Below are positions 7,253-32,328 of a DNA stretch of 42,147 nucleotides, piece by piece. The number at the start of each line of letters is the position of its first letter. The first letter of the stretch is position 1. Position numbers and translations under genes: made by a program. The notes under the pieces are model-generated. The model worked only from the letters and a program-made list of their open reading frames with translations, had not been told where the DNA came from and ran no database searches. The stretch comes from a virus. Location of the stretch: IMG/VR virus record IMGVR_UViG_3300025362_000020, positions 1 through 42,147 of that record. One strand, written 5' to 3'.

Positions 7253-9136
7253 ATGGCAGGATTTACACTAAGATCACTCGATAACAAATCTTCTGGATGG
7301 ATAACAAGAATGCAACGAAATATTAGAATGCTTTCTTCATTAGGAATGAAATGGGATCATGAAATAGTACAACAATCAAAAGCAATAGGTATTGCAGAAG
7401 CCCAAATGGATTCCTTATATGGACTTTACTATCAACAGGGACAATATATAGGGTCTGATATAGGACAAAAAGAATTTATAGCATTTTATGATAAAGAATA
7501 TCCTACTCGTAGAGATTTTTTACGTAAATTTGCAATGAATGGCGAAATCGAACATGTTCTTGAAGTTATAGCTGATGAAACAATTATTTATGATAATAAT
7601 AATTATTTTGCATATCCAGCAACACAAGAATTAAAAGCAGTTATTAAACAAGAAAAAGCTAAAGAAATTATAGATAATTTAAATGAAGCTTATAAAAAAG
7701 TTTATTATGCATTCCAATTTAATAAGGGCCATGATGCATGGCATTATTTAAAAAAGTTTTTAATTGATGGATTTTTAGCATATGAAATTATTTATGATGG
7801 TGAAGGAGATAAAGATGCTAAAAATATTATTGGCTTTAAGGAATTAGATCCAGTTTCTTTAGAACCAGAAATTAGAAAAGATGATGATGGTAAAGAATAT
7901 CGAGTTTGGTTTCAATATAGAGGAGATTCAGCAAGACAAAGAGAATTATTAGATTCGAATTTAATTTATATTTCATGGGCAAGGGGAAATTTTATCTCAA
8001 GATTATCATACGTAGAGCGATTAGTTCGTTCATTTAATATGTTAAGAACTCTTGAAAATTCAAGAATTATTTGGAATGTATGGAATGCTCAAATGAGAGT
8101 TAAAATTGTAGTTCCAATAGGTTCTCAATCAGAAGCAAAAGCAAGAACTAGACTTTCTGAGTTAAGAGGTATGTATAAAGAAGAACTTACAATTGATGAT
8201 CAATCTGGAGAAGTTAATTATAATGGACAAGTTCAATTTCCTTTTGCAAAAACATTTGTTATCCCATCAAGAGAAGGACAACAAACTGATATTGATGGAT
8301 TTCAACCTCAAGGATATGATTTATCTAATACTGAAGCTCTTAAATATTTTTGGTTACGTTTTGTTATTGAAACAAAGGTGCCAAGTTCAAGATTTGCAAA
8401 TGAACCTAACAGTGGAGGTGGAGGTGGCTGGTCTTCTGGTGCAGAGGGTGTTGAAAGAGAAGAAATAAGATTTGAGAATTTTATTAATAGAATAAGATCT
8501 ATCTTTCAGGAAATTATATTAAAACCAACATGGTTACAATTTGTAATTAATAATCCTGCTTTCCAGGAAGATGAATCTTTAAAGGGTGCTATTGGACTTA
8601 ATTTTAATGAAGAGCATTTATTTACAGAGGCCAAGGAAAGAGAATTAGCTGAAAAAGCATCAAATACTATATCTACATTAATGAGTATTACTCAACCTAC
8701 CATCAATCCTGATGGCAGTCCTGGTGATGAAAATTACTTTGATCCTAAATTCTTAGTTGAAAAGTTTATGAAGTTAAAAGAATCTGATACTAAATTAAAT
8801 GAGAAATATAAAAAAGCTAGAAGAGAACAAATTCAACGACTTGCAAGAGCATATGCTCGTATAATGGCTGCAAGAGGAGAGGCTGGCGGTGCTGCTGGTG
8901 CTGATGCATTTGGCGGTGAACAAAGCAATGCGATGGGAGGATTTGGAGATATGGGAGCTGATACAGGTTTTGGAGATTTTGGAGGTGAAGCTGGTGAAGA
9001 AGGATTTGGAGATTTTGGCGGAGATGGTGGAAGTGGTGGATTTGATGAATTTGAAGGAGAAGGAATTGAAGATTTTGATGATCTTGATACAGGCGAAGAA
9101 CCAGAAGAAGAAGAAGATGAAAAGGAATCTTTATAA
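7253..9136 (+). CDS. Portal vertex protein, T4 gp20-like
   Basis: 627 aa; T4 gp20 is 524. Landmarks: the N-terminal region FLRKFAMNGEIEHVLEVIADE (about 84-104), the core with VERLVRSFNMLRTLENSRIIWNV (about 255-277), and a Gly-rich loop near 385 followed by EGVEREEIRFENFINRIRSIF, the region equivalent to the GR..EI.RDE..F..FI block of T4-type portals. These match the dodecameric portal that nucleates the head and seats the terminase. The extra length is a low-complexity acidic Gly/Asp/Glu/Phe tail from about 545, perhaps exposed inside the head. It stands apart from the other tail and packaging genes, which lie on the minus strand beyond 25 kb. Confidence 0.85.
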   Translation: MAGFTLRSLDNKSSGWITRMQRNIRMLSSLGMKWDHEIVQQSKAIGIAEAQMDSLYGLYYQQGQYIGSDIGQKEFIAFYDKEYPTRRDFLRKFAMNGEIEHVLEVIADETIIYDNNNYFAYPATQELKAVIKQEKAKEIIDNLNEAYKKVYYAFQFNKGHDAWHYLKKFLIDGFLAYEIIYDGEGDKDAKNIIGFKELDPVSLEPEIRKDDDGKEYRVWFQYRGDSARQRELLDSNLIYISWARGNFISRLSYVERLVRSFNMLRTLENSRIIWNVWNAQMRVKIVVPIGSQSEAKARTRLSELRGMYKEELTIDDQSGEVNYNGQVQFPFAKTFVIPSREGQQTDIDGFQPQGYDLSNTEALKYFWLRFVIETKVPSSRFANEPNSGGGGGWSSGAEGVEREEIRFENFINRIRSIFQEIILKPTWLQFVINNPAFQEDESLKGAIGLNFNEEHLFTEAKERELAEKASNTISTLMSITQPTINPDGSPGDENYFDPKFLVEKFMKLKESDTKLNEKYKKARREQIQRLARAYARIMAARGEAGGAAGADAFGGEQSNAMGGFGDMGADTGFGDFGGEAGEEGFGDFGGDGGSGGFDEFEGEGIEDFDDLDTGEEPEEEEDEKESL

Positions 9137-9653: not shown

Positions 9654-9902
9654 ATGAAAGATCTTTGGAAAAAAATTAAAGAATGGTTTTTAGCGAAGGC
9701 TTTACCTTGGCTTAAAAAATCATGGATGCAAATAATTAATTTAATTATTGTAATGGGAGCTTATTCTGCATTAGATAATGCTAATTCATCTGCTACATGG
9801 TATGTTGGATTATGGGGATTTGTATTATTAGCTTATTACATTTTTTGGAAATTATTAGGTACAGAAAAAATGATTAAAAAATCAAAAACAAAAAAGAAAT
9901 AA
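9654..9902 (+). CDS. Small two-helix membrane protein (holin-like topology)
   Basis: 82 aa. An amphipathic N-terminus (MKDLWKKIKEWFLAKALPWLKK) is followed by hydrophobic segments at about 25-40 and 48-66 and a very basic C-terminus (KKSKTKKK). Two helices plus a charged tail is the usual holin layout, but there is no lysin next to it and the topology is not specific. It lies directly upstream of the tmRNA and may be cotranscribed with it. Confidence 0.6.
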   Translation: MKDLWKKIKEWFLAKALPWLKKSWMQIINLIIVMGAYSALDNANSSATWYVGLWGFVLLAYYIFWKLLGTEKMIKKSKTKKK

Positions 9903-9982
9903 TAAGAAAATGAGGCCCGTCATGAACATGACTAGTTGTCAGAATAGTATATAAGACGACGGTTCGAACCCGTCCAGCTCCA

Positions 9983-9999
9983 CTAAGATTTTAAAATAT
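9983..9999 (+). other. tmRNA intervening segment
   Basis: CTAAGATTTTAAAATAT separates the mature 3' end of the acceptor piece from the 5' G of the coding piece. In permuted tmRNAs this loop is excised from the precursor, leaving two chains. ATTTTAAAAT within it is self-complementary. Confidence 0.7.
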
Positions 10000-10063
10000 G
10001 GGGTTGACTTGGATTTGATTATATAGGATAGTAGCAATGAGTAAGTCTCAGTAATCGCTAACT

Positions 10064-10099
10064 GGCGAAAATAAAACAGAAATGGCAATGGCTGCCTAA
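10064..10099 (+). other. tmRNA tag reading frame (GENKTEMAMAA)
   Basis: Resume codon GGC at 10064-10066, then GAA AAT AAA ACA GAA ATG GCA ATG GCT GCC and TAA at 10097. The AMAA end resembles the C-terminal ALAA degron read by ClpXP-type proteases. Upstream TAACTGGC parallels the TAGTCGC before the E. coli resume codon. Confidence 0.8.
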
Positions 10100-10123
10100 T
10101 AGGTATTTATTGACAGGAGACTT

Positions 10124-10152
10124 GCCCACAGCCAAAGTGTGGGCTATTTTAA
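10124..10152 (+). terminator. Terminator of the tmRNA transcript
   Basis: GCCCACA (10124-10130) pairs with TGTGGGC (10138-10144) across a 7-base loop, followed by TATTTTAATTTTTTT. It is the most GC-rich stem in the region. Confidence 0.75.
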
Positions 10153-10161
10153 TTTTTTTGA

Positions 10162-10182: not shown

Positions 10183-10515
10183 ATGAGAGCAAAACAATTA
10201 AATGAAGGATTAGATGATATTTTAAAATCTAAAACTAAAGAAGAAATATAACAATCATTAGATGAAGTTATATCTAAAGTTAATGTTTATTTTTTTACTA
10301 TTAAGGATTTAAAGGAATTAATAAAAGATTTACCTGATGGATTACCTATAGGATGTAGTGGTCATTTTGGAGAATTTATACCAATGGATAGTGGAGATTT
10401 TTGGTTATCAACATCTAATCCTGTTCCTAGAAATAAAGGATGGAGATCTAAAATAGATATAAACATGCCTATATTTAATATAGATGGTGTTGATTTAGGG
10501 CCATCTCCTGATTAA
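10183..10515 (+). pseudogene. MRAKQLNE-leader gene interrupted by one TAA
   Basis: ATG 10183 begins MRAKQLNEGLDDILKSKTKEEI, the full shared leader, then meets TAA at 10249-10251. The frame then stays open for 87 codons (QSLDEVISKVNVYFFTIK... to GVDLGPSPD) to TAA 10513. The first codon after the stop is CAA, and a CAA-to-TAA change is enough to explain the break. The distal part has coding-like composition and no family I recognise. Promoter and start look intact, so the loss seems recent. Confidence 0.65.
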
Positions 10516-10576: not shown

Positions 10577-11113
10577 ATGAAAGTAGGAACCTTTAATATT
10601 CAAGACTACATTGGAAAACTTTATGAAAATGTAGATGAAAACGATTTAAATTCCCAATTAAATGAAGAAGACGGTAAGATGCCTGATACTGAAGGTATGA
10701 TTATACCAGAAGATTCTAAAAAAGCATATGATTGGCTTAAAAAAGAATTTCAAAAGGGTAAAACAGAAGTTAAAGTTGAAGTATCATATCATGACTTTAA
10801 ACCTGGATATAATTTAAGTACTGATGTAAAAACCATCAATAATTTTGAACCTGGTATGTATGGTAAAGTTAAAACTGGGCAAACTGAAGGTGGAACTGCT
10901 GCAAAAACTGTTGCATTTCCTGAAACAAAATTTCCTGGAAGTGATGGAAAAGCTGAAAAAAATGAATCTTCAGAATCAGATGGATTAGGTGGAGAATCTA
11001 AACCTAAAGGTGGAGTTAAAGTTGAAGCAAAAACAACACAAAAACCAAAAGAAGAAGTAAAAGCAGAAGAAAAAGTAGAAACAACAAATAAAAAAGATGA
11101 GGACGATAAATAA
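10577..11113 (+). CDS. Acidic/charged low-complexity protein, unknown
   Basis: 178 aa. MKVGTFNIQDYIGKLYENVDEND opens an acidic ~110-residue region; from about 115 on it is a disordered Lys/Glu/Gly/Ser/Thr tail (KPKEEVKAEEKVETTNKK). The portal-side location and charged composition would suit a prohead core component, as in T4 where small acidic core genes follow gene 20. No motif supports that, so function is unknown. Confidence 0.55.
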   Translation: MKVGTFNIQDYIGKLYENVDENDLNSQLNEEDGKMPDTEGMIIPEDSKKAYDWLKKEFQKGKTEVKVEVSYHDFKPGYNLSTDVKTINNFEPGMYGKVKTGQTEGGTAAKTVAFPETKFPGSDGKAEKNESSESDGLGGESKPKGGVKVEAKTTQKPKEEVKAEEKVETTNKKDEDDK

Positions 11114-11123
11114 TAATAATAAT

Positions 11124-11432
11124 ATGTTACGCGATAATTCTTTAGAAGAAAGATTAAATGCTATTAAACAAGGTGAGGAAATTCCTGTGCCATCAACTAA
11201 TAAACAAAACCCGATAATACAAAAACCTAAAGAAATACCTAAACCTACATATATTGTAAAATATTCTTATATATTAGAAAGTCTAATATCTTCATTGTTT
11301 TATGGTTTCGCTATCAAAACAATATTTGGATTAGACTGGACTATGTTTGGAGCATTCACAGTTGGTTTTTTATTTAATCATGCTATATCTATATTTCCGA
11401 AATACTTATTCCCAAAATATTTTAATAAATAA
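11124..11432 (+). CDS. Small membrane protein
   Basis: 102 aa from ATG 11124. An in-frame ATG at 11097 lies inside the upstream gene and adds a poly-Asn run, so it is less likely. A charged N-terminus of ~50 residues (LEERLNAIKQGEEIPVPS) is followed by two hydrophobic stretches (about 56-75 and 77-95). Function unknown. Confidence 0.55.
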   Translation: MLRDNSLEERLNAIKQGEEIPVPSTNKQNPIIQKPKEIPKPTYIVKYSYILESLISSLFYGFAIKTIFGLDWTMFGAFTVGFLFNHAISIFPKYLFPKYFNK

Positions 11433-11488
11433 TTTTATTTTTCTAAAACTTTAATGTTTTAATACATAAAATTATTAAATAAAAAAAT

Positions 11489-12205
11489 ATGGTGAAAAGA
11501 GGAAAATTAATAGTTCTTGAAGCTTGCGATGGTGGAGGTAAATCTACTCAAGTAAAAATAATAAAAAATTATTTAAAAAATAATAAAAAATTATCATGCC
11601 AAACTTGTCATTTTCCTGCGTATAAACACAATCAATTTTCTGATATTATAGCAAAATTTTTAAGAGGGGAATTTGGGTCAATTAATGAGGTTGATCCATT
11701 ATTCGTTGCTAATATATATGCTATGGATAGATTTAGATTTTCGCCTGAATTAGATAAATATTTAAATGAGTACGATGTAGTTTTGTTAGATAGATATGTT
11801 TATTCTAATATAGCTTATCAATGTGCAAAATTAAATACAGAAGAAGAAATTAAGCAATTAAAAGAATGGATTTTAAAATTTGAATTTGAATTTTTAAAAT
11901 TACATTATCCAGATTTAAATCTTTTTTTAGATGTCCCAATTGAAATTACAAAAACTCGATTACAACAACGGCTTAAAGAAGATAGAGAATATTTAAATGG
12001 TAAACAAGATATTCATGAAGCTGATATAGAATTTCAATCTAAAGTTCGTGATAATTATTTGTCTACTATGAAAAACGCGCCTAATTGTAGAATTATTACA
12101 TGCGCTATTCAAGAAAATAATAATTTAAATATATTAAAACCTGAAGAATTATTTTTAACATATAAAAAATATTTAGATTATGTAATATTTAATATTCCAA
12201 TATAA
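11489..12205 (+). CDS. tmk: Thymidylate kinase
   Basis: 238 aa. The P-loop is EACDGGGKST at residues 11-20. VVLLDRYVYSNIAYQ (97-111) carries the DRY motif that binds dTMP phosphate and the adjacent thymine-site segment. LDVPIE followed by RLKEDREYLNGKQDIHE is the LID region. It phosphorylates dTMP to dTDP and so follows the thymidylate synthase and DHFR encoded at 23.5-24.9 kb. It is slightly longer than bacterial Tmk (about 210 aa). The next gene begins at the very next base. Confidence 0.85.
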   Translation: MVKRGKLIVLEACDGGGKSTQVKIIKNYLKNNKKLSCQTCHFPAYKHNQFSDIIAKFLRGEFGSINEVDPLFVANIYAMDRFRFSPELDKYLNEYDVVLLDRYVYSNIAYQCAKLNTEEEIKQLKEWILKFEFEFLKLHYPDLNLFLDVPIEITKTRLQQRLKEDREYLNGKQDIHEADIEFQSKVRDNYLSTMKNAPNCRIITCAIQENNNLNILKPEELFLTYKKYLDYVIFNIPI

Positions 12206-12457
12206 ATGAAAGATAAAACAATAATTCTTTTTTCAGAAATGTTTGAAGGAAAGGAATTTAAAAAAATTTACAAATTATCAAAACCTAGGTCACCAAAGTT
12301 CATAGAATTTATTACAGATGATGACGATGAATGGCTTATTGATATTATAGAATATAAAAGAAAAACGGGGGTTGTAATAAAACATGTCATTATATTACAA
12401 AAGGACCTTCAAAAAAATTTAGACATATTTAAAAAAGATGGTTTCGTAGAAATTTAA
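12206..12457 (+). CDS. Small unknown protein downstream of tmk
   Basis: 83 aa, with its ATG immediately after the tmk TAA. Acidic centre (FITDDDDEWLIDIIEY) with alternating strands (GVVIKHVIILQKDL). No family recognised; probably cotranscribed with tmk. Confidence 0.6.
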   Translation: MKDKTIILFSEMFEGKEFKKIYKLSKPRSPKFIEFITDDDDEWLIDIIEYKRKTGVVIKHVIILQKDLQKNLDIFKKDGFVEI

Positions 12458-12483
12458 CATAAAATTAACCTTTTTAAAAAAAA

Positions 12484-12549
12484 TTAACAATGTTAACATA
12501 TTATATTAAAACCAAGTCATTTTTTAAATTATTGATATATAAAAATAAA
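12484..12549 (+). promoter_or_regulatory. AT-rich control region: TTAAC-AAT-GTTAA dyad plus TATA-type box
   Basis: The 13-base near-palindrome TTAACAATGTTAA (12484-12496) is followed by TATTATATTA and, at 12533-12549, by GATATATAAAAATAAAA. The dyad is operator-sized and the second box is the usual TATA-type motif. It precedes the 99-aa gene and possibly the sigma factor unit. Confidence 0.4.
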
Positions 12550-12595
12550 ATCATTATTAACTAAAATTAAAATTAAAATTAAATAAATCATTTTT

Positions 12596-12895
12596 ATGAA
12601 AAAAGACGCGAAAATTGAAACAACTCCAGGACTTGATGCAAATCAACAAGTAGAAACTAATGCTTATGTTCCTACATATAAAGTTAAACCTGAATTTAAA
12701 GAAGCTATTGTTAAGGCAATTGGGCAACAACCCTTTAATCAAACAGCAGGAATTATAAATGCTATTAATGTAGAAGTTATTGATCATAATACTTTAACTC
12801 AACTTATTAATGTTATTGGTAATTTTCCTTATATTCAAGTAGCACATTTGCTTACAAATGTTAATACTTATGTAGAACAAATAATTGAAGAGTAA
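12596..12895 (+). CDS. Small helical protein, unknown
   Basis: 99 aa. A disordered N-terminus is followed by a helical domain from about 32 (EFKEAIVKAIGQQPFNQTAG, then LINVIGNFPYIQVAHLL). It stands alone between an upstream control region and a strong terminator, which suggests its own regulated unit and high expression. No family recognised. Confidence 0.65.
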   Translation: MKKDAKIETTPGLDANQQVETNAYVPTYKVKPEFKEAIVKAIGQQPFNQTAGIINAINVEVIDHNTLTQLINVIGNFPYIQVAHLLTNVNTYVEQIIEE

Positions 12896-12921
12896 AATCT
12901 TTAATTTTTTAATGAAATAGT

Positions 12922-12949
12922 AAAGTTGGGGAAAATCCCCAACTTTTTT
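12922..12949 (+). terminator. Strong intrinsic terminator
   Basis: AAAGTTGGGGA (12922-12932) pairs perfectly with TCCCCAACTTT (12936-12946) over an AAA loop, followed by TTTC. It separates the 99-aa gene from the sigma factor gene. Confidence 0.85.
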
Positions 12950-12976
12950 CTAAAATAATTATTGGAATAAAATTAT

Positions 12977-13597
12977 ATGAATAAAAACGAATCAATCCAA
13001 TTATTAGCTTTAAGATTTATTGACAATAAATCTGATTTAAATTTTAAACATTTAGTTGAAAGATTAAAACCAGGTTTATTATTATTTACAAATAAATTTA
13101 TAAGTGATAAAGATCTTTGTCAAGAAGTTGTTTCCCAAACATTTATTAGTATCTGGGAAAAAATTGAACAATATAAAGTAGAATTCCATTTTTCAACATG
13201 GGCTTATGCAATTGCAAGAAATGAAGCTCTTGGTCAATTAAGAATTCTTAAAAGAAATTTATCACATGAACAATTAACTGAAAATCATTCTAAAATTCTA
13301 AAATTATATTCTAATCCTGTTCATTTAGATCTTGAATGTATTGGGCCAAGCGGAGCAGAACTTACTGAGTATTTACATAATCTTACTATTAAAGAAATTG
13401 GTCTTTTAAACGAACCTTATAAAACTGTAATGTTAGAAAGAGAAGTTGAAAAAAAGCAATTACATGATATAGCAGAAGTTTTAAATTGGAATTTAAATAC
13501 AGTTAAAACAAGATTAAGAAAAGCTAGACAAGATGTAGCAGATAATTTATCAAAAAAATATCCTGAACTAATAGAAGCATATAATGAAACAAAATAA
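12977..13597 (+). CDS. ECF-type (sigma-70 family) sigma factor
   Basis: 206 aa. Region 2 spans about 24-92 (LCQEVVSQTFISIWEKI, then FSTWAYAIARNEALGQLR, the core-binding and -10 recognition helices). Region 4 spans about 137-190 (EPYKTVMLEREVEKKQLHDI and LNWNLNTVKTRLRKARQDV, a helix-turn-helix). The length and absence of region 3 fit ECF factors. T4 uses the divergent sigma gp55 for late genes with TATAAATA boxes; this protein could play that part for the similar boxes here, which is inference. Its 3' end overlaps the next gene by 14 bases. Confidence 0.85.
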   Translation: MNKNESIQLLALRFIDNKSDLNFKHLVERLKPGLLLFTNKFISDKDLCQEVVSQTFISIWEKIEQYKVEFHFSTWAYAIARNEALGQLRILKRNLSHEQLTENHSKILKLYSNPVHLDLECIGPSGAELTEYLHNLTIKEIGLLNEPYKTVMLEREVEKKQLHDIAEVLNWNLNTVKTRLRKARQDVADNLSKKYPELIEAYNETK

Positions 13598-19409: not shown

Positions 19410-19835
19410 ATGAGAGCTAAGTTTATAAATAAAGAAAATAGTATATCAGAATATGGTATTGAAAATATTGATTTTTCACCTGCAACAAGATGGTTTCAAG
19501 ATGAACCAAAAGTTATGTATCGAATCAAAACTAAAAAGGCAGTTGATTTTAAAAGTGATGATGATACTGAATTAGCGCATTTTAAACAAACTTGTTTTAA
19601 ACATGATATCAAATTTACTGAAACTAAAGTTAAAATGAATGAAGCATTGAAATTTGTTGAGAAAATACATCCATGTGCAAAATGTATTAAAGATATTTTA
19701 AAATATCAAGGAAAACCTGAAGATCAACGAAAATCTAAAATAATGTATTCTGAAGAAAATCTTGAAAATCTTGAAGATGAAAAGATTAAAAATATATGGA
19801 GGGAGCTTCACCATCCACAAGGAAGAGCATGGTAA
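19410..19835 (+). CDS. Unknown protein with MRAKFINKE leader
   Basis: 141 aa. The MRAKFINKENSI leader is one residue longer than usual before Glu. It has a C-x-x-C pair in HPCAKCIKDIL and an HHPQGRAW C-terminus. No ankyrin repeat. It lies one base before the next MKAK gene, so the two form a unit. Confidence 0.6.
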   Translation: MRAKFINKENSISEYGIENIDFSPATRWFQDEPKVMYRIKTKKAVDFKSDDDTELAHFKQTCFKHDIKFTETKVKMNEALKFVEKIHPCAKCIKDILKYQGKPEDQRKSKIMYSEENLENLEDEKIKNIWRELHHPQGRAW

Positions 19836-19836
19836 T

Positions 19837-20628
19837 ATGAAAGCTAAATTTGTAAATGAAAGTTTAAGTATTTTAAAACCTAAATCTAATGATGAAATAT
19901 TAGATAATCTTAAAAATTTAAATTCTGATGATTTATTATTTAAATCCTCTGAAATTGGTTTTATAAAGGGTGTTGAATTAGCTTTAGAAAGAGGGGCTGA
20001 TATGCATGCTAATGATGATCATGCTTTAAGATATGCTTCGGGAAATGGTCATGTTGAAGTTGTAAAAGTTTTGCTTGACGCTGGGGCTAATGTGCATGCT
20101 AATGATGATTATGCATTAAGGTGGGCTTCTGAAATTGGTCATGATAAAGTTGTTAAATTATTGCTTAATGCTGGGGCTGATATGCATGCTAATGATGATC
20201 ATGCTTTAAGATATGCTTCGGGAAATGGTCATGTTGAAGTTGTAAAAGTTTTGCTTGACGCTGGGGCTAATGTGCATGCTAATGATGATGTTGCTTTAAG
20301 ATGGGCTTCTGAAAATGGTCATGATAAAGTTGTTAAATTATTGCTTAATGCTGGGGCTGATGTGCATACTAATGATGATCATGCTTTAAGGATGGCTTCT
20401 GAAATTGGTCATGATAAAGTTGTTAAATTATTGCTTAATAATAGGGCAAATGTTCATGCCGGAAATAATGAAGCTTTAAAATATGCTTCTAATAATGGTC
20501 ATGTTGAAGTTGTAAAAGTTTTGCTTGACGCTGGGGCTAATGTGCATGCTAATGATGATGTTGCTTTAAGATGGGCTTCTGAAAATGGTCATGTTGAAGT
20601 TGTAGAATTATTAAAAAAATATATATAA
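19837..20628 (+). CDS. Ankyrin-repeat protein with MKAKFVNE leader
   Basis: 263 aa from ATG 19837; an earlier in-frame ATG at 19762 lies inside the upstream gene. Leader MKAKFVNE, then SLSILKPKSNDEILDNLKNL, an N-cap (KSSEIGFIKGVELALERGADMH), six full 30-residue ankyrin units and a final ELLKKYI cap. It contains a ~115-bp segment repeated identically 180 bp apart. Close paralogue of the genes at 2812 and 28951. Confidence 0.85.
   Translation: MKAKFVNESLSILKPKSNDEILDNLKNLNSDDLLFKSSEIGFIKGVELALERGADMHANDDHALRYASGNGHVEVVKVLLDAGANVHANDDYALRWASEIGHDKVVKLLLNAGADMHANDDHALRYASGNGHVEVVKVLLDAGANVHANDDVALRWASENGHDKVVKLLLNAGADVHTNDDHALRMASEIGHDKVVKLLLNNRANVHAGNNEALKYASNNGHVEVVKVLLDAGANVHANDDVALRWASENGHVEVVELLKKYI
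19995..20600 (+). repeat. Ankyrin-coding direct repeats, including a 180-bp duplication
   Basis: The stretch from GCTGATATGCATGCTAATGA near 19997 through GGTCATGTTGAAGTTGTAAA and on to GCTAATGATGAT recurs unchanged 180 bp later near 20177. It spans two 90-bp ankyrin units. A third partial copy lies at about 20500-20560. Confidence 0.8.
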
Positions 20629-21994: not shown

Positions 21995-22669
21995 ATGGCT
22001 AATCTTTTAAAACCTAAAAAAATTGCAAATATTTTAGAATTACTTATTACTATGTATGGTACAGATTATGAATCTATATTACAAAAATCTATATCAATTA
22101 ATTCCAGAGCTGGTGTACATTACGCATTTAAATTAATGAAAAAAGAAAATAATAAGTATATTTACGATGCTGATATGGTTTTTGATGCCGTGCAATGTAA
22201 TAATATTTATATGGTTAAATATTTAATAAACAAAACAAATGAATTAGATAATGTAGATTATGATGAATTTCTTGAATATGCAGTAGAATATCATAATTTA
22301 CATATTGTAAAATATTTTTTGGGAAAGGGTGCTAATATAAATTGTAATTTCGGGTTTCCTTTAGAATTAGCTATTGACGAAGAAAATTTTAAAATGGCTA
22401 AATATTTATTAGAACATGGAGCTACAATTAATAATGATACACATTTATTAGATTTTATAGCAGCAGAGTTAAAATGGCCTGAAATATTAATTAAACATAT
22501 CAAAAAAATAAATATGGATTATATATCTTATGGAATCCAAAACAATAATTTAATTTTAATTAAAAAATTAGTACGACATGGTGTTACTATATCATTTGAC
22601 GATGTAATAGAAGCATTAGAATTAGAAAATATTAAAATAGTAAAATATTTAGTAAAACAAATAGATTAA
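21995..22669 (+). CDS. Divergent ankyrin protein lacking the MKAK leader
   Basis: 224 aa. It starts MANLLKPKKIANILELL, reminiscent of the LLKPKS block but without MKAK-x-x-x-E. Five or six degenerate ankyrin units follow (NIYMVKYLINKTNELD, LHIVKYFLGKGANINCN, FKMAKYLLEHGATINND, LILIKKLVRHGVTI). These are far more diverged from one another than the DNA-identical arrays at 2812 and 19837. It converges on the minus-strand glycosyltransferase gene, overlapping it by four bases. Confidence 0.7.
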   Translation: MANLLKPKKIANILELLITMYGTDYESILQKSISINSRAGVHYAFKLMKKENNKYIYDADMVFDAVQCNNIYMVKYLINKTNELDNVDYDEFLEYAVEYHNLHIVKYFLGKGANINCNFGFPLELAIDEENFKMAKYLLEHGATINNDTHLLDFIAAELKWPEILIKHIKKINMDYISYGIQNNNLILIKKLVRHGVTISFDDVIEALELENIKIVKYLVKQID

Positions 22670-30819: not shown

Positions 30820-32328
30820 TTAACCCAATTGTTTTTGCCATATATATTTTAAATTTCCAACTCCCCAAATTTTATGAAATTTACGGTCGAGCATTATTTC
30901 AGTTTCAGTTTTATTTTTATCAAAACCTTTTTCAACTAATTTATGTTTCATAAAATTACTTCGATGCATTCTTTTATCATTAGCCCACCAATAATTTATA
31001 GCTGTTAATCCTAAATTTTTAAATCCTAACACCTCATATAAGTTGCCATTACTTATATCTAAATTAGCATATGATATTATTTGAATAGGACTATATGTTT
31101 TAATAAAATTACTAAATAATTTTGATGCTGATCCTCTAATATTATAATTTATTTTATTACAAAATCTTAATAATTCATATTCATCTTCTTTAGATGTTTG
31201 ACCTAATATTTTTCTTTTTTTTCCGAACGTCATTAAAGAAAATAATTTATCTTCATAATAAAGTCCTAAACGAATAGATGACATGCAACTTCCTTGAATA
31301 TGATTTTTATCTAAAAATTGTTTAGATGTAGTATAATCTATATTTCTTATATTACATTTACGAGCATCTCCTTTATTTTTAGTTTTTAATAATGAATTTA
31401 GAATAATTGATTTAATAATATCTTGTTTAAAATTCCAGTCATCTTCCCATATTGTTATAAGTTTTATACCTTTATCATTACACATTTTCCATTTATTTTG
31501 ATGAAAGGTTTTTTCTTTAAATAAACTACTATGCCAATAAAGACCATTAAATTCAATAGCTATTTTTAAATCTGGAATATAAACATCTAATTCTTTACCA
31601 AATTTTCTATAATTAGATTTTACAATTCCATTATAATTTTCCTTAACAAAATTTAAAACATCTATTTCTGGTTTACTTGAAAAGAAAAAGTTTTCATGTT
31701 TACTACAATATAATTTAAATTTTGGATGTAACTTATATAAATCAACATTATTATTACAATTTTTAACTAAACATTTAGGATTGTTATTATTGTGTTTATA
31801 TAATAATATTTTTTTAGAAAAAGAAATTTTAGAATTTTCAGAATGTTTATTAATTATTGTAAAAAAATGGGGTAATATTTTCTTAAAAAACTTTTCAGTA
31901 TAATGATAAGAATTTATAAAATTATGAGTATTTAAAAATTCATTACATAAATCTATATCATCTTGTGATGGTTTATATTTCTCACTTAAATATAAATCTA
32001 TACATTTAGGGCAATATATTTTATATTTTTCATCTACATTTAAAGATTTTTTTCTACCATAAGATTGTATTTTTTGTAAATTATGTATTTTGCAATTTAT
32101 TGTGTATTTTGTAGTTGATGGAATTAATTCGTTCGTTTTTAATCTTTCATCATCTTTCCATACACCAAAACATTTCCCATTTTTATCTCTTGCCGTTACT
32201 ATAAAAGTTTGAGTTTTAACTATATTATTATTATTATTTAAAATTGGATCTTCTTTATATAAATATAAAATTTCTTTAGTTTGTTTATTAACATATTTGT
32301 GTTTTTTATTTATCACTTTATTATCCAT
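30820..32328 (-). CDS. Homing endonuclease, Vsr-like (EDxHD) fold
   Basis: 502 aa. Zinc-type cysteine pairs occur at C106-C109, C186/C191 and C208-H211. The nuclease core at about 218-300 has SKPEIDVLNFV (E221), GKELDVYIPDLKIAIEFNGLYWHSS (D248, E259, H266) and HQNKWKMCNDKGIKLITIWEDDW. This is the very-short-patch-repair-like fold of free-standing phage homing endonucleases. The C-terminal ~170 residues (from about 335) form a probable DNA-binding domain ending WQKQLG. It sits between the tail tube gene and the broken gene, and probably cuts intron- or insert-free relatives at the tail locus. Confidence 0.75.
   Translation of the reverse strand: MDNKVINKKHKYVNKQTKEILYLYKEDPILNNNNNIVKTQTFIVTARDKNGKCFGVWKDDERLKTNELIPSTTKYTINCKIHNLQKIQSYGRKKSLNVDEKYKIYCPKCIDLYLSEKYKPSQDDIDLCNEFLNTHNFINSYHYTEKFFKKILPHFFTIINKHSENSKISFSKKILLYKHNNNNPKCLVKNCNNNVDLYKLHPKFKLYCSKHENFFFSSKPEIDVLNFVKENYNGIVKSNYRKFGKELDVYIPDLKIAIEFNGLYWHSSLFKEKTFHQNKWKMCNDKGIKLITIWEDDWNFKQDIIKSIILNSLLKTKNKGDARKCNIRNIDYTTSKQFLDKNHIQGSCMSSIRLGLYYEDKLFSLMTFGKKRKILGQTSKEDEYELLRFCNKINYNIRGSASKLFSNFIKTYSPIQIISYANLDISNGNLYEVLGFKNLGLTAINYWWANDKRMHRSNFMKHKLVEKGFDKNKTETEIMLDRKFHKIWGVGNLKYIWQKQLG

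Follow-up and report, generated by a model that had tools for sequence, protein, structure and literature searches.

The window (the whole 42,147-nt stretch of DNA that was analysed) is a 42-kb piece of the genome of a huge myophage related to Lak, and carries a circularly permuted, two-piece tmRNA gene at positions 9905-10160 on the + strand. Judging from its sequence and from those of its homologues, this permuted tmRNA is real and conserved, and very probably functional. We are fairly confident that it represents a working phage-encoded ssrA, permuted within the phage lineage, which would use the SmpB and AlaRS of the host.

Permuted tmRNAs are known from three main bacterial clades and from mitochondria. 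Within phages, a two-piece tmRNA was described in phage Melnitz in 2022, in a study in which 53 of the 133 unique phage tmRNA structures were two-piece, 50 of these 53 being marine or aquatic (PMC9004378). The 2025 tmRNA database holds 97,179 unique sequences, 79 of them from phages and 11,946 permuted, with three main bacterial clades having the permuted form, and tmRNA together with SmpB was noted in huge phages in 2020. Our search of the open-access literature turned up no publication that deals with permuted tmRNA in Bacteroidota or in phages of Bacteroidota; sequences like the permuted gene of the Bacteroidales metagenome-assembled genome (MAG) discussed below may stand unremarked in the tmRNA database. 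The first-pass annotation did not consider the phage permuted tmRNAs described earlier (PMC9004378), and the novelty is lower on that account: the permuted form in phages is itself known, and what is new is a separate phage lineage that carries it.

Structure of the permuted gene

ARAGORN called the gene as tmRNA*, the sole permuted tmRNA in the window, and called no tRNA genes there. The general permuted tmRNA model RF04321 matched it with 59.1 bits (cut-off 47, E=4.3e-9), the only Rfam match above cut-off in the whole window. The first-pass annotation had read the 3' half as encoded before the 5' half and had proposed a search with Rfam covariance models; the ARAGORN call and the RF04321 match agree with that order, put the gene far beyond chance, and all the elements that it described lie where it had placed them. 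The elements of the gene are the following.

9905-9982 (+): 3' (acceptor) piece, first in gene order, with a hairpin-like element as its 5' end; the start at 9905 is an estimate
9958-9974 (+): T arm, GACGG-TTCGAAC-CCGTC
9975-9981 (+): acceptor 3' strand, CAGCTCC, followed by the discriminator A9982
9983-9999 (+): intervening segment, presumed to be removed by processing
10000-10123 (+): 5' (coding) piece, with acceptor strand, D-arm analogue, P2 strand, third-helix strand, resume region, tag, stops and stop-codon hairpin
10000-10006 (+): acceptor 5' strand, GGGGTTG, beginning past 17 nt beyond the discriminator
10019-10025 with 9948-9954: P2, 7 bp across the pieces
10034-10038 with 9935-9939: third helix, across the pieces
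10064-10096 (+): tag frame GENKTEMAMAA, then TAA TAG at 10097-10102
10124-10144 (+): intrinsic-terminator-like hairpin, GCCCACA-loop-TGTGGGC, with a T-rich tail to 10160; presumed 3' end of the precursor

The acceptor stem (7 bp) pairs across both pieces, as does P2; both helices were located in the sequence and covary in 12 homologues, and the tag with its double stop is present as the first-pass annotation had read it. In these 12 homologues the intervening segment, counted after the C next to the discriminator, is 14-185 nt long. Window positions 9983-9985 are CTA, so CCA is not encoded, and none of the 18 distinct homologues encodes it.

The covariation analysis was performed on the pieces of the 12 homologues, rearranged to one-piece order and then aligned. 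The RNAalifold consensus contained 36 pairs, 24 of which had changes on both sides. Paired cells amounted to 91.0% in this alignment versus 73.0% in shuffles, cells with double changes numbered 84 versus 30, and none of 500 shuffles reached the observed value on any measure. Sliding the partners left only 42-46% of cells paired, a comparison that favours the unslid row because the structure was taken from the same alignment. The acceptor stem, P2 and T stem had been named in advance, by the first-pass annotation and ARAGORN, before the alignment-derived structure, and covariation backs the formation of the acceptor stem, P2 and T arm from both pieces. Pair position 5 of the acceptor stem shows four standard pair types among the aligned homologues, while the alanine-identity pair G3-U70 is invariant in 12 of 12 aligned and in six added homologues. 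Helix 5, a small hairpin that surrounds the stop codon, is conserved across homologues, and the terminator-like hairpin corresponds to covarying helix 6. The 9-bp helix that had been proposed to enclose the tag can be drawn in the window, but homologues pair 49% of its cells versus 46% in shuffles; it is therefore probably not functional, and was dropped.

Three permuted tmRNAs on separate sub-branches, L053 (and L054), L055 and L193, have lost the TTCGA T loop and kept the T stem. The GG of the D loop is absent in the same L053, L055 and L193, and the remaining 15 homologues have both GG and T loop, a pattern suggestive of recurrent loss of the elbow contact.

Homologues, gene neighbourhood and host

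At least 18 distinct homologues, the window included, were found in related phage contigs; they sit inside contigs, not at contig ends, and mostly near the same T4-type portal gene. A portal query in IMG/VR returned 13 close relatives (66-82% identity over the best segment) and one distant hit, and RF04321 matched 11 of these 14 portal-related contigs, 9 of them past the cut-off. Four further contigs past the RF04321 cut-off came from a portal-profile scan, and more homologues from a pattern built on the common ATAAACGGCG resume region. A short-spacer pattern found three viral loci, with L003 as the only relative among them; a pattern for alpha-type genes gave no matches, and a nucleotide search of the phage collection with the tmRNA region gave short, weak matches alone (E about 1 or worse). 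Two viral contigs, L002 and L004, carry permuted tmRNAs of other kinds, which had no match when searched against phage records; the apparently long tag of L002 ends in FAMAA and was misread by ARAGORN.

Tags called by ARAGORN among the relatives include GEKQTQFAMAA, GEQFNEYRIAA, GANKQTFAMAA, GETVNEMRMAA and ANNQEMLMAA. Homologue tags end in -AA, with the exception of L194 (-VA). Of the 18 phage genes, 16 have Gly as the resume codon, with L047 and L053 counted at GGC, though the script printed a longer frame for these two. Gene order is largely conserved: portal, the 82-aa membrane protein (in some), tmRNA, ORF10577, ORF11097, thymidylate kinase, sigma factor. The neighbouring genes in the window are the following.

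7253-9136 (+): T4-type portal protein, upstream of the tmRNA (Pfam PF07230, E=1.4e-54; PHROG portal; synteny)
9654-9902 (+): 82-aa probable membrane protein, between portal and tmRNA, also in several relatives
10577-13597 (+): conserved downstream genes ORF10577, ORF11097, thymidylate kinase (11489-12205) and sigma factor (12977-13597)

After the tmRNA, an ORF at 10183-10515 (MRAKQLNE...) has an in-frame TAA where the L003 homologue has CAA, and is either a broken gene or a sequencing error. The window also contains three ankyrin-repeat proteins (713-2224, 19762-20628 and 21995-22669) and a homing-endonuclease-like gene (30820-32328).

By terminase and portal, the nearest named phages are the Lak megaphages of Prevotella (34-43% identity), along with uncultured huge phages such as LR756500. 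Stop-codon reassignment as in Lak was rejected for the window, where table 11 yields long ORFs and TAA is the main stop. The first-pass annotation had read a phage location and a link to Bacteroidota, and both are supported; a Bacteroidota host is likely, since Shine-Dalgarno-like sites are missing from all 39 inspected genes and a Bacteroidales MAG contains a close relative. Absence of Shine-Dalgarno sites is typical of Bacteroidota. The MAG holds a portal relative and, adjoining the end of a portal gene, a permuted tmRNA with the tag GENVYEMNLAA; its own tmRNA is one-piece. Binning of a phage contig into a MAG is weak host evidence by itself, and here the clues agree.

Origin of the permuted form

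On balance we lean towards the view that one lineage of huge phages of Bacteroidota independently turned its own one-piece tmRNA into the permuted form, within viruses. The ancestor of these huge phages would have carried a one-piece tmRNA, and the permutation would have occurred in the common ancestor of the portal clade to which the window belongs, probably by a tandem duplication after which the outer halves were lost, in an event separate from those in alpha-, beta- and cyanobacteria.

The portal tree gathers the permuted rows in a single group of 18 (97/93), of which 15 are permuted and 3 showed no tmRNA, next to the Lak group. Because this tree has a midpoint root and includes some long branches, the permuted group itself is firmer than its relation to Lak. 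All tmRNAs seen within the portal clade of the window are of the permuted kind, and one-piece genes above the cut-off are absent there: the one-piece model RF00023 (gathering 47) gave 14 bits for the window and passed its cut-off in none of 16 clade contigs. One-piece tmRNAs occur in LR756500, Lak-A1, Lak-B1 and LR756504, and all six contigs above 200 kb of a more distant portal group have one-piece genes. ARAGORN missed the one-piece tmRNAs of Lak-A1, Lak-B1 and LR756504 (L018, L019, L020, L056-L058), which accompany an SmpB gene. The one-piece tmRNAs of distant huge phages (L197-L202) have apparently long tag frames, such as ARQEIGASIINMAFANAPVALAA in L198. One of the largest known phages, of 735 kb, has an intron form (L026; LR756501.1, about 718,400): a probable tmRNA whose T loop is interrupted by a group I intron (RF00028, 96 bits).

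Among cellular genomes, a standard one-piece tmRNA was above cut-off in 60 of 61 sampled Bacteroidota genomes. RF04321 exceeded its cut-off in only 2 of 395, namely in the phage contig of the Bacteroidales MAG and in G251, where the permuted gene sits among phage replication genes and the genome also has its own one-piece gene. That locus (L068/L070; G251:C1, about 986,000), on a 1.6-Mb contig with a phage replication module, comprises the permuted tmRNA, with its tag read as GKVIQMNNAPVRLAA, and two tRNA-like genes.

The first-pass annotation had offered two origins, independent permutation or acquisition. The former is favoured over a known permuted bacterial donor by scores below cut-off with the alpha, beta and cyano models, by the Gly-start tags and by the one-piece sister phages. 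Acquisition of a real permuted tmRNA from a bacterium or phage whose gene was already permuted, replacing the phage's one-piece copy, is in our estimation unlikely, yet it is the most serious competitor. Other bacteria, and marine phages too, commonly carry permuted genes, and exchange between phages is possible because a second type of Bacteroidota phage (G251) has a permuted gene. One homologue reached 49.6 bits with the full-length betaproteobacterial model RF01850 (gathering 84), with which the window scored 38.3, and another reached 48 with the cyanobacterial RF01851 (gathering 70), for which no match was listed in the window region. Both values nonetheless fall below their cut-offs, as does the best homologue score with the alphaproteobacterial RF01849 (39.2 bits, partial; gathering 50), a model that gave no match in the window region; the tRNA-like domain is short, which tempers certainty about the origin. 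Against acquisition also stand the resume codons, Gly in most of the phage genes and GCA in the Rfam permuted consensus, and a 16-nt identity at the resume codon between the window and one Bacteroidota one-piece gene, a length reached in none of 300 resampled controls. Moreover, no chromosomal permuted tmRNA was found among the 395 Bacteroidota genomes.

If the swap did arise in the phage lineage, it would be a further independent origin of a rare gene form. A viral origin of the permuted form, with living one-piece relatives, would mean that the event could be placed and reconstructed, and a phage clade among one-piece relatives offers a case in which a change of gene form is traceable on the phage tree.

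Proposed function and relation to known systems

A rescue function fits the sequence and may proceed as follows. A single precursor would be transcribed and end at the terminator, RNase P would cleave before G10000, and trimming and CCA addition would take place at A9982. Host AlaRS would alanylate the product through G3-U70, and host SmpB and EF-Tu would bring it to ribosomes stalled in infection. The nascent chain would receive ...GENKTEMAMAA, the ribosome would be freed, and host proteases would degrade the product. The phage would probably gain by having ribosomes available at a time when mRNAs are degraded, and it may also relabel products with its own tag. An SmpB gene was sought and not found in the window's clade, most contigs of which are fragments. 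A reading in which the RNA serves chiefly as an inhibitor of host tmRNA, or as its decoy by titrating SmpB, and is not itself a working tmRNA, is improbable, and considerably more so than acquisition. There is a precedent in phage DS6A, whose RNA, consisting of the tRNA-like domain only, inhibits tmRNA in E. coli (PMC11915505; PMC4131195), and some relatives of the window have non-canonical T loops. However, conservation extends to the tag frame, its -AA end and the hairpin at the stop codon, none of which a decoy would need. That the gene is a decaying relic, a chance pairing or an assembly artefact is scarcely credible: it is known from metagenomic contigs only and adjoins the ORF with the in-frame TAA at 10183, but 18 distinct sequences have the arrangement in common, with spacers that differ in length and with changes that compensate each other, and covariation in practice refutes this reading. 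On the preferred account, a working tmRNA, huge phages of Bacteroidota would keep their own ribosome-rescue RNA and their own tag, a point relevant to how these phages maintain translation while they infect the cell.

Permuted tmRNAs of alpha-, beta- and cyanobacteria resemble the window's gene in the order 3' piece, spacer, 5' piece, in a tRNA-like domain formed across the pieces and in a tag encoded in the 5' piece. The window and its homologues differ from them in scoring below the cut-off of each lineage, in resuming mostly at Gly, and in being carried by huge phages whose host is probably a member of Bacteroidota. Melnitz and the marine phages (PMC9004378) share with the window a phage-borne permuted ssrA of apparently complete structure. 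The Melnitz gene, however, has its relatives among alphaproteobacterial SAR11 genes and is associated with a glutamine riboswitch, whereas the window passes no lineage model and has no riboswitch, the tmRNA being its only Rfam match above cut-off.

Lak, LR756500 and related huge phages are relatives of the window phage, with portals about 40% identical. Lak has its tmRNA beside the portal, as in the window, although upstream of it in Lak and downstream in the window, a difference that tells against the preferred reading, and the LR756500 tag ends in -RMAA, like those of some permuted relatives. Lak-A1, Lak-B1 and LR756504 differ from the window's clade in having a one-piece tmRNA with an encoded SmpB. 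The one-piece tmRNAs of Bacteroidota themselves have, in several genomes, GGCGAA resume codons and Gly-Glu tags like the window's, and most of the phage tags start with Gly; unlike the window's gene, the Bacteroidota tmRNAs are not permuted, are about 350-400 nt long and contain several pseudoknots.
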